From Spirochaetales bacterium (GTDB lineage Bacteria; Spirochaetota; Spirochaetia; SZUA-6; JAFGRV01), in assembly GCA_016935735.1 (NCBI GenBank), contig JAFGQK010000071.1, forward strand, positions 1 through 64,000: 64,000 nucleotides of DNA, read 5' to 3'. Below the pieces are notes generated by a model. That model made no database searches and was not told the DNA's origin. It was given only the letters and a program-made list of their open reading frames with translations. Of the stretch, positions 30,102 through 32,939 are shown one piece after another (positions within the stretch are counted from its first letter, which is position 1; every line of letters begins with the position of its first letter). Both the position numbers and the translations under genes were made by a program.

Positions 30102-30386
30102 GTCCTGGCAGTACAGGAATGGCTCTGGCAGACGATTGACGGGCTTAATAACAGCATCAATAATACAAGACCATGGGATTTGCTGAAACAGGATTCATCC
30201 ACTCTTTTACAGGATAGATTGAAAGCCTTGGTGTGAAAACTCATTGAATTCGGGTGCCGGCTCAGTCCTTTCCTGCCGGATACAGAAGAGGAGATTATTG
30301 ACAGGTTTCATTCGACACCGATAAGACGGGACACCCGATGTTTCCGCAAAAAGAGTAAAGACGTCATTCCTATTCCAGGAGATTAA
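30102..30386 (+). pseudogene. Remnant of methionyl-tRNA synthetase anticodon-binding region
   Basis: Frame: VLAVQEWLWQTIDGLNNSINNTRPWDLLKQDSSTLLQDRLKALV*KLIEFGCRLSPFLPDTEEEIIDRFHS; MetRS-like 'N.YI....PW.L.K...LLL.PFMPET...I'. In-frame TGA; no catalytic domain upstream. Confidence 0.5.
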
Positions 30387-31887
30387 GCATCTTTTCCGTT
30401 GCTTCTGCCGCGGCAAGAACCTGGTCTGAATGGACCCCTTTTGTGACAAATGTCGTATGATTTCTCCATGTTATGGAACATTGCACCAGGGCATCGGTTT
30501 TCCCCCCGGGCGGAATATTAACCTGGTAATCCACCAGTTCAGGAAGATTGAACCTGAGTTTACTCGCAATCTTTTTTATTGCATCCATAAACGCATCATA
30601 ACCACCATCTCCCTGGCCTGTTTCCTCATATACTGTTTCCCTGGTATCAGCCTGCATTTTGTAATTTATTTTGATTGTGGCAATGGATTTAAGGCCTTTA
30701 CCTGAAACAATAATACAGGCATCTATAGAAAATTTTCTCTGTTCGGGCCGTTCAAGAACATCGGAAATAATATACGGCAGATCTTCCTTTGTAATAATGG
30801 CCTTTTTATCCCCCAGTTCGACAATACGTTCAAGAATTTTATTCTGCTGGTCTTTTGTTAATTCGATGCCAAGTTCCTTGAGGTTGTACTCAAGATTCGA
30901 CTTCCCGCTTAGTTTTCCCAATGCATAATGCCGTTTCCTGTCAAACCGCTCCGGCAGGAGGGGATTTGCATAAAGATTGCCCTTTTTATCACCATCTGCA
31001 TGAATTCCCGCAGTCTGGGTAAATACATTTATCCCACTAATCGGTTTATGGAACGGCAGCCGTTTACCTGAAAATACCTCAACCGTTTCACTCATCGCAC
31101 AGAGTTTCTTTTCGTCTATATTGGTTTTCATCTTAAGAAAATCATGGATGCACACCACTGCTTCATCCAGGGGAGTATTCCCTGCCCGTTCACCCATCCC
31201 GTTAACCGTGCAATGAATGCCGTGAATCCCTGCACTCACGGCAGCAATGGTATTGGCTGTCCCGAGCCCGTAATCATTATGAGCGTGAAAATCAAAATGA
31301 AGGTCCGGATAACGCCGGATATGTTCGGTAATAAAGGAAGTCACCTGTGTGGGACAGAGGATGCCGAGAGTATCCGGGAGCATGAACCGTTTAATCGGTG
31401 TATCCTTTAATGAATCAATCAGTGTATAGATATATTCCGGGCATTCAAGCATACCGCCGGACCAGATTTCAAGATAAATATTACATCTGAACGATTTTTT
31501 TTCTGCATAGTCAACCGTTGCAATAATATCCCGGATATGTTCTTCCGGGGTTTTATTCAGTTGTTTTTTCACATGATTAAGAGATCCCTTGGCCAGTAAA
31601 TTCATTACCTTGCAGCCGGTTTCCTCCATCCAGTCCACGGACTTTATATTGTCAGTAAATCCCAGTATCTCAATCCTGTCACCATACCCATGTGACAGGG
31701 CCCATTCCATGGTTTTGGCCACTGTCTTCTGTTCCCCTGCACTCACCCGCGCACTGGCAATTTCGATTCTGTCCACTTTCACTTCTTCCAAAAGCATTTT
31801 CGTAATAGTGAGTTTTTCCGCGGATGTATAACTCACATCTTTCATCTGTTCACCGTCCCTTAATGTTGTATCCATTACTTCTATCAT
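30370..31887 (-). CDS. cimA: (R)-citramalate synthase, Leptospira type (DRE-TIM/LeuA-like)
   Basis: 'MDTTLRDGEQMKDVSYTSAEKLTITKMLLEEVKVDRIEIASARVS', 'GFTDNIKSVDWMEETGCKVMNLLAKGSLNHVKKQL', 'FTQTAGIHADGDKKGNLYANPLLPERFDRKRHYALGKLSGK' closely match the Leptospira CimA pattern as I recall it. Confidence 0.85.
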   Translation of the reverse strand: MIEVMDTTLRDGEQMKDVSYTSAEKLTITKMLLEEVKVDRIEIASARVSAGEQKTVAKTMEWALSHGYGDRIEILGFTDNIKSVDWMEETGCKVMNLLAKGSLNHVKKQLNKTPEEHIRDIIATVDYAEKKSFRCNIYLEIWSGGMLECPEYIYTLIDSLKDTPIKRFMLPDTLGILCPTQVTSFITEHIRRYPDLHFDFHAHNDYGLGTANTIAAVSAGIHGIHCTVNGMGERAGNTPLDEAVVCIHDFLKMKTNIDEKKLCAMSETVEVFSGKRLPFHKPISGINVFTQTAGIHADGDKKGNLYANPLLPERFDRKRHYALGKLSGKSNLEYNLKELGIELTKDQQNKILERIVELGDKKAIITKEDLPYIISDVLERPEQRKFSIDACIIVSGKGLKSIATIKINYKMQADTRETVYEETGQGDGGYDAFMDAIKKIASKLRFNLPELVDYQVNIPPGGKTDALVQCSITWRNHTTFVTKGVHSDQVLAAAEATEKMLNLLE

Positions 31888-31909
31888 GTTCCACCTCCAT
31901 AAAATAAAA

Positions 31910-31935
31910 AAGCCGTGGGATTCTGCCCACGGCTT
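31910..31935 (-). terminator. Attenuator terminator of cimA
   Basis: AAGCCGTGGG-attctg-CCCACGGCTT, 10-bp perfect stem followed on minus strand by TTTTTATTTT. Confidence 0.9.
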
Positions 31936-31959
31936 AGCAATTATCTTTTGTCGTTTCCC

Positions 31960-32073
31960 TCAAGCCGGGGCTTCTTTATGGGTAATGCCAATAATAATAG
32001 CGATTATGGTTATTATTATCCGGATTGGGGAAATAAAAATGAATGTATTCAATAGCCCATTACATTGTTTCAT
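31960..32073 (-). CDS. Isoleucine-rich leader peptide (attenuator) of cimA
   Basis: MKQCNGLLNTFIFISPIRIIITIIAIIIGITHKEAPA*: 12 Ile in 37 residues, directly upstream of the terminator and cimA. Confidence 0.85.
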   Translation of the reverse strand: MKQCNGLLNTFIFISPIRIIITIIAIIIGITHKEAPA

Positions 32074-32080
32074 TTTAAAG

Positions 32081-32109
32081 AAAATAACATATACGAAAAA
32101 AAGTGTCAA
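32081..32109 (-). promoter_or_regulatory. Sigma-70-type promoter of the cimA leader
   Basis: TTGACA (32109-32104) N17 TATTTT (32086-32081) on minus strand. Confidence 0.7.
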
Positions 32110-32126: not shown

Positions 32127-32939
32127 TCAGGGATCTTTTTCTTTGTTATTTATTTTAGCAGTGAATTTTCCTGCCAGCTTTCTCAAATCACGCATTCTTA
32201 CTCTCATCGTACCATCAACCTCAAGAGAAATAACTGCTTCCGGCGTATACTGTTCAAGTGCATAAAAAAAGGTATCGAAGTCTATTACGCCTTTTCCGAT
32301 CGGCCAGTGATGATCTGCTTTCCCGTCATTATCATGGAGATGTACATGTTGGAGCCGGGCCCCCATAGCTTTTACCCATACAGGGGCACTATCATCCGCG
32401 AAAAGATTCAAGTGCCCGATATCAAGACATAAACCGAAAAATGGGTTATTCACCTCATCAATAAGCCGTATAAGAAGATCCGGCGTTTTTTCAATCGTAT
32501 TCTCGATTACAATACCAATACCGGCTTTTGCCCATCGTTGAATTTCCTTTTTCCAGTATGCAGAGGTTTGTTTAAATCAGATATCCTGTCTTGCAAACAT
32601 ATCAACCTCGGCGGTAAATCCGCTGTGCAGGACAACGCGGAATGCATTCAAATGAACAGCGGCATCGAATATCATATCTATCCGCTTTTCAACAGCACGG
32701 CGAATTAAGTGGTCAAAATGAGCATATTCAATACCAACAAACGGTCCGTGCAATACTATCTGGCCGCTGAAACTGGATCGAACAGTCCGGTGTACGGAAA
32801 TTCGATGTATCCATGCCTGTTTTGATTGTACACCAACCAATCCGTAACTTCCTAATTCGACTTCGGCATTAAGCTTTTTTATTTCCGGCAGGAAGGGAAT
32901 TTGCTCATCTTCACCACATATACTTATCATTACCTTCAT
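32127..32939 (-). pseudogene. Sugar phosphate isomerase/epimerase (xylose isomerase-like TIM barrel) with one in-frame TGA
   Basis: N-part 32577-32939 ends 'MFARQDI*', same frame continues 'FKQTSAYWKKEIQRWAKAGIGIVIENTIEKTPDLLIRLIDEVNNPFFGLCLDIGHLNLF...LQHVHLHDNDGKADHHWPIGKGVIDF'. Confidence 0.75.

Follow-up and report, generated by a model that had tools for sequence, protein, structure and literature searches.

The 64-kb window analysed here (the whole stretch of DNA, 64,000 nt of contig JAFGQK010000071.1) carries on its minus strand a cimA gene preceded by a short open reading frame (ORF) crowded with isoleucine codons and by a terminator-like hairpin, and the locus raises the question of whether, and how, the citramalate route to isoleucine is governed by the supply of its own end product. 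The leader has the complete 1:2 / 2:3 / 3:4 anatomy of an attenuator and, judging from its sequence and modelled folds, we regard it as very likely that it is a ribosome-mediated transcription attenuator, which would sense charged Ile-tRNA and control cimA. Ribosome-mediated attenuators are known from the trp, leu, thr and ilvGMEDA operons of Escherichia coli, in which the leader peptide is rich in the amino acid that the operon produces.

The 505-aa product of cimA has its best match in the NCBIfam family NF042433, at 672 bits against 307 for the next family and below the curated cut-off of 950 bits for NF042433. Over 318 residues it aligns with 3ble, the structure of the catalytic domain of Leptospira CimA (E 5.5e-119), and its C-terminus aligns with 3f6g, a structure deposited as alpha-isopropylmalate synthase, which we take to be the regulatory domain of Leptospira CimA. 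A separate 2-isopropylmalate synthase, LeuA, is encoded in the genome (TIGR00970, above cut-off). Because of the best family match, the match to 3ble and the separate LeuA, we infer that the gene codes for an (R)-citramalate synthase of the Leptospira type, in line with the preliminary description of the locus, which had placed a citramalate synthase gene downstream of the leader. No threonine deaminase above threshold was found in the genome, which is approx. 93% complete (the best candidate scored 65.8 bits, the cut-off being 378.75), and for this reason citramalate is likely the only entry to isoleucine in the host. FlaA proteins are present in the genome and were found in none of 14 control genomes, which supports its spirochaete affiliation.

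The features of the leader and of cimA are as follows:

32104..32109, minus strand: -35 box TTGACA, from the sequence and a consensus scan (10 of 12 matches together with the -10 box, which for TTGACA/TATTTT as a bare pattern is no better than chance)
32081..32086, minus strand: -10 box TATTTT, 17-nt spacer from the -35 box, TG ahead of TATTTT
31960..32073, minus strand: leader peptide ORF MKQCNGLLNTFIFISPIRIIITIIAIIIGITHKEAPA, 37 aa with 12 Ile codons, then the stop codon TGA
31984..32040, minus strand: stretch of Ile codons, residues 12-30, the proposed stall region, from the sequence
32020..32033, minus strand: segment 1 UUUCCCCAAUCCGG, partner of 31968-31954 in untranslated RNA, from minimum-energy folds
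31962..31971, minus strand: segment 2 GCCCCGGCUU (GCCCCGGCTT), touching the leader stop codon, antiterminator partner of segment 3
31954..31968, minus strand: partner of segment 1, CCGGCUUGAGGGAAA, overlapping segment 2, from minimum-energy folds
31925..31935, minus strand: segment 3 AAGCCGUGGGC (AAGCCGTGGGC), 5' arm of the terminator with the core GCCGUGGG, from the duplex and comparison of orthologues
31910..31919, minus strand: segment 4 CCCACGGCUU, 3' terminator arm, with the U tract at 31909-31900 directly behind it, from the sequence and a stem scan
31891..31900, minus strand: Shine-Dalgarno region of cimA, ATGGAGGTGG, from the sequence
30370..31887, minus strand: cimA with its ATG at 31887, 505 aa, Leptospira-type (R)-citramalate synthase by profile and structure match

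The leader thus runs from the promoter through the Ile-rich ORF and segment 2 to the terminator with its T tract, the Shine-Dalgarno sequence and cimA. The promoter, the 37-aa ORF with 12 Ile codons and the 10-bp terminator with a T-rich tail ahead of cimA had all been named in the preliminary description, the coordinates of which proved correct throughout. The description does not mention that a mere 7 nt separate the leader ATG from the -10 box, and because of this short distance the leader transcript is predicted to be, probably, leaderless or nearly so. The terminator (31935-31910) consists of a 10-bp stem, a 6-nt loop and the T tract (-17.7 kcal/mol); segment 3 starts 26 nt beyond segment 2, and 12 nt separate segment 2 from the final Ile codon. 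No other short ORF of the 64-kb window is both Ile-dense and followed by a terminator-like hairpin within 80 nt.

Three mutually exclusive stems were found in the window RNA, namely 1:2, 2:3 and 3:4. The 1:2 stem (UUUCCCCAAUCCGG with CCGGCUUGAGGGAAA) comprises 16 pairs and forms part of the minimum-energy fold; the 2:3 antiterminator duplex amounts to -17.9 kcal/mol. The complementarity between the segment at the stop codon (31971-31962) and the 5' arm of the terminator, on which the preliminary description had built its switch, was recovered, and when the upstream stretch was dinucleotide-shuffled 500 times, only a single shuffle matched it in pairing with that arm; for the fold of the leader RNA as a whole, one shuffle in 200 did as well or better (z = -2.8). 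A compact attenuator of two states had been suggested, and of this the alternation of 2:3 and 3:4 holds, whereas the restriction to two stems does not, the third stem, 1:2, having been missed. With an assumed downstream footprint of 12 nt, a simulated ribosome placed on any of four Ile codons left the nascent RNA to form the full 10-bp 2:3 stem, a ribosome at the stop codon allowed the 3:4 terminator to form, and untranslated RNA formed both 1:2 and 3:4, so that the opposite outcomes expected for a stalled ribosome and for one at the stop codon were reproduced in the model. The 12 nt that lie between the end of the Ile stretch and segment 2 fit this footprint, segment 2 being free under a stalled ribosome and covered by one at the stop codon.

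In the mechanism that we propose, RNA polymerase would begin just ahead of the leader ATG and be followed by a ribosome translating the Ile-rich leader. When isoleucine is scarce, the ribosome would stall on the Ile codons, covering segment 1 and leaving segment 2 free to pair with segment 3 as the latter emerges; no terminator would form and cimA would be transcribed. When isoleucine is plentiful, the ribosome would reach the stop codon and cover segment 2, segments 3 and 4 would pair, and transcription would end. A leader that is left untranslated would adopt 1:2 together with 3:4 and would also terminate. It is from the sequence and the modelled folds that we infer leader translation, stalling at uncharged Ile-tRNA, the efficiency of termination and a response to isoleucine.

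Orthologues of cimA with 58-81% protein identity to that of the window were found in three families of the order (f1, the window's own, as well as f3 and f5), and ten of them, the window included, have upstream sequence; counts among these and other related genomes overstate the number of independent events, because such genomes are non-independent samples. The Ile-rich upstream ORF (uORF), the terminator and the 2:3 pairing are kept upstream of cimA in relatives, a conservation that the preliminary description had anticipated. The terminator arm GCCGTGGG lies upstream of cimA in all ten, and its core GCCGUGGG is invariant in the ten leaders. For the 2:3 pairing, no more than 30 of 500 shuffles were as good in seven of the ten (range 0-30) and 51 of 500 in an eighth; at the loci L015 and L016 the pairing of segment 2 was no better than in the 500 shuffles. 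Segment 2 encodes different peptides from genome to genome (EAPA, KKPWP, NSPSV, CPRPP); it is covered by the codons GCC-CCG-GCT-T in the window and its genus mate, lies in other reading frames in the remaining two genera of f1, and is represented in f5 by CCCACGG approx. 40 nt before the terminator arm. Because the complementarity of segment 2 is kept while peptide and frame change, these comparisons indicate that selection acts on the RNA pairing and not on the peptide. The terminator stem itself showed little covariation beyond shuffles in the orthologue alignment, which is uninformative because the 5' arm hardly varies.

A ribosome simulated on Ile codons left the nascent RNA in the 2:3 form in every one of the six f1 and f5 orthologues, and one at the stop codon gave 3:4; 1:2 is part of the minimum-energy fold in five of these orthologues (it is missing in L007). 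For the completed RNA at equilibrium, 3:4 was preferred in five of the six despite the mask of the stalled ribosome, so that the switch would depend on 2:3 forming first; on these models it must be largely kinetic, with the order of synthesis being decisive. Attenuation of trp likewise depends on the order of RNA synthesis.

The GCCGTGGG palindrome was also considered as a dispersed repeat. This was rejected for the AT-rich f1 genomes, since the four that carry the leader hold one or two copies each, the cimA copy always among them; in GC-rich genomes the palindrome occurs at background frequency, the same as its reversed control. The four orthologues of family f3 have leaders with only 2-4 Ile codons, and in L013, L014 and L016 the leader ORF stays open through the terminator, with no stop codon ahead of it; f3 leaders are therefore not counted here among the attenuators. 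The stop codon of the leader ORF in these three overlaps the start codon of cimA (TTGA or ATGA), an arrangement that could reflect translational coupling. In one genome of the window's family (G003, locus L017) a more distant CimA (44% identity) lacks the leader, while Val and Leu leaders are retained elsewhere in the genome; this cimA is possibly a replaced gene.

The amino acid in the leader was then approached by a blind scan for closed uORFs shortly upstream of an intrinsic terminator, in which any of the 20 amino acids could win. At cimA, Ile won in six of the ten orthologues of the order, these being the six f1 and f5 genomes. Leu won at leuA in all nine genomes of the order that have this leuA, and Val at ilvB in five out of five genomes of the window's family:

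L178 (contig C149 of the window's own genome) and L179-L186: Leu-rich leaders with terminator upstream of leuA, 9 of 9
L187 (contig C39 of the window's own genome), L188, L189, L190 and L192: Val-rich leaders with up to 13 Val in 30 aa, a terminator and then ilvB

The ilvB leader peptide of the window's genome reads MMSVYRFLSKVDVPVVVVVVVVVIVLGGYG. The same scan found an Ile leader at none of 26 control cimA genes, of the Leptospira type, from other classes of the phylum, two of which show any amino acid at that density, Ile in neither case. A scan of Bacteroidota, Proteobacteria and archaea for Ile density only, in which a terminator was not required, yielded a few weak hits and no convincing Ile-rich uORF before related genes. 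With Ile at cimA, Val at ilvB and Leu at leuA, the sequences indicate that the leader amino acid follows the product of the enzyme. An attenuator, as the preliminary description had read the locus, is thus supported computationally by conservation, by the footprint folds and by the Val and Leu leaders at ilvB and leuA.

Where ilvB lies near leuA, its leader combines codons for Ile, Leu and Val (L194, L195, L196, L202 and L204), and in one checked case, L019, a cimA of the TIGR00977 type is near ilvB and leuA as well. These mixed leaders suggest that leaders became specialised as the operon was split. In the window's family the cimA and ilvB leaders start 6-10 nt past the -10 box (for ilvB of three genomes the nearest in-frame ATG was read by eye), and because of this distance their transcripts are predicted to be, probably, leaderless. 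Taken together, the family may run separate, product-matched attenuators (Ile for cimA, Val for ilvB, Leu for leuA) derived from an ancestral operon with a mixed Ile/Leu/Val leader, with cimA and ilvB leaders translated from leaderless transcripts; we would give this wider scenario an even chance of being right.

Other explanations of the locus have to be weighed against attenuation by Ile-tRNA. The strict invariance of the GCCGUGGG arm in ten leaders would be expected if the leader sensed something other than tRNA, be it through nascent-peptide arrest, a protein, or a small molecule acting on that arm in the manner of a riboswitch or T-box. However, the arm serves in both 2:3 and 3:4, and this double duty accounts for its invariance; no peptide motif is conserved besides the amino-acid run, and no Rfam family, T-boxes included, was matched at the gathering threshold in the leader region, nor at E <=1 in the locus. 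We consider such a signal very improbable, if the least improbable of the alternatives. Slightly less credence still is given to the Ile-rich ORF being a functional small membrane peptide, with the hairpin as its terminator and cimA expressed by readthrough or from another promoter. The leader peptide is indeed hydrophobic enough for a membrane helix, but relatives preserve the single-amino-acid run only and not the peptide sequence, the run becomes Val at ilvB and Leu at leuA, and segment 2 is complementary to the terminator arm in different frames.

It might finally be argued that an intergenic run of Ile codons has arisen by chance in AT-rich DNA next to the ordinary terminator of the upstream gene, and the upstream ORF, which ends at 32127, just 17 nt before the -35 box, could use the terminator found here. 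This is already contradicted by the comparative data, and we deem it next to impossible: the combination of Ile ORF and hairpin is unique in 64 kb, related genomes of the order keep the leader, the 26 control cimA genes lack it, and leader and product match at three genes.

Attenuation by Ile-tRNA, the reading that we prefer, has close parallels. The cimA leader shares with the E. coli attenuators segments 1-4 with alternative pairing and a U-tract terminator just before the first structural gene; it differs in that Ile alone is enriched, whereas the ilvGMEDA leader mixes Ile, Val and Leu, in that its target is cimA of the citramalate route and not ilvA, and in that its transcript is probably leaderless. 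In actinobacteria, ilvB(NC) and leuA are preceded by uORFs enriched in branched-chain amino acids and in many cases by a terminator (PMC10272879; PMC8079986; PMC1262725), and the ilvB-II motif of Corynebacterium has been tested with lacZ (PMC10272879). The IlvL and LeuL leaders of Streptomyces are transcribed leaderless, as predicted here for the cimA and ilvB leaders (PMC8079986). Actinobacterial ilvB leaders are mixed in Ile, Leu and Val, and none has been reported before cimA. Anatomy alone can mislead, because in Streptomyces coelicolor changes of the regulatory codons in a similar ilvB leader were without effect, as cited in PMC1262725. Branched-chain attenuators before ilvB have been proposed for many bacteria, Leptospira among them (PMC10272879). 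The Leptospira ilvB motif (PMC8632094; reinterpreted as a proposed attenuator in PMC10272879) is a uORF in which three or more Val codons follow one another. It comes from another spirochaete and is similar to the ilvB leaders rich in Val that the window's family carries; it was proposed for ilvB only, and no cimA leader was described.

A literature search on attenuation of cimA or the citramalate route and on attenuators in spirochaetes and Leptospira, with many subscription papers outside its scope, found no cimA attenuator, and the present one appears to be the first described for a citramalate synthase. The mechanism itself, ribosome-mediated attenuation, belongs to the textbook. The cimA leader suggests that the threonine-independent route to isoleucine falls under the same ribosome-stalling logic as the classical amino-acid operons, a form of control hardly documented in the phylum. 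The set of three leaders is the most interesting extension of the cimA finding, since three product-matched leaders within a single genome amount to a natural experiment on the tuning of leader codons after pathway genes separate.

Further upstream, on the minus strand at 32127-32939, two ORFs lie adjacent to one another, and the one further downstream is similar to the C-terminal half of a sugar-phosphate isomerase/epimerase; the pair is possibly one gene split by a frameshift or an assembly error.
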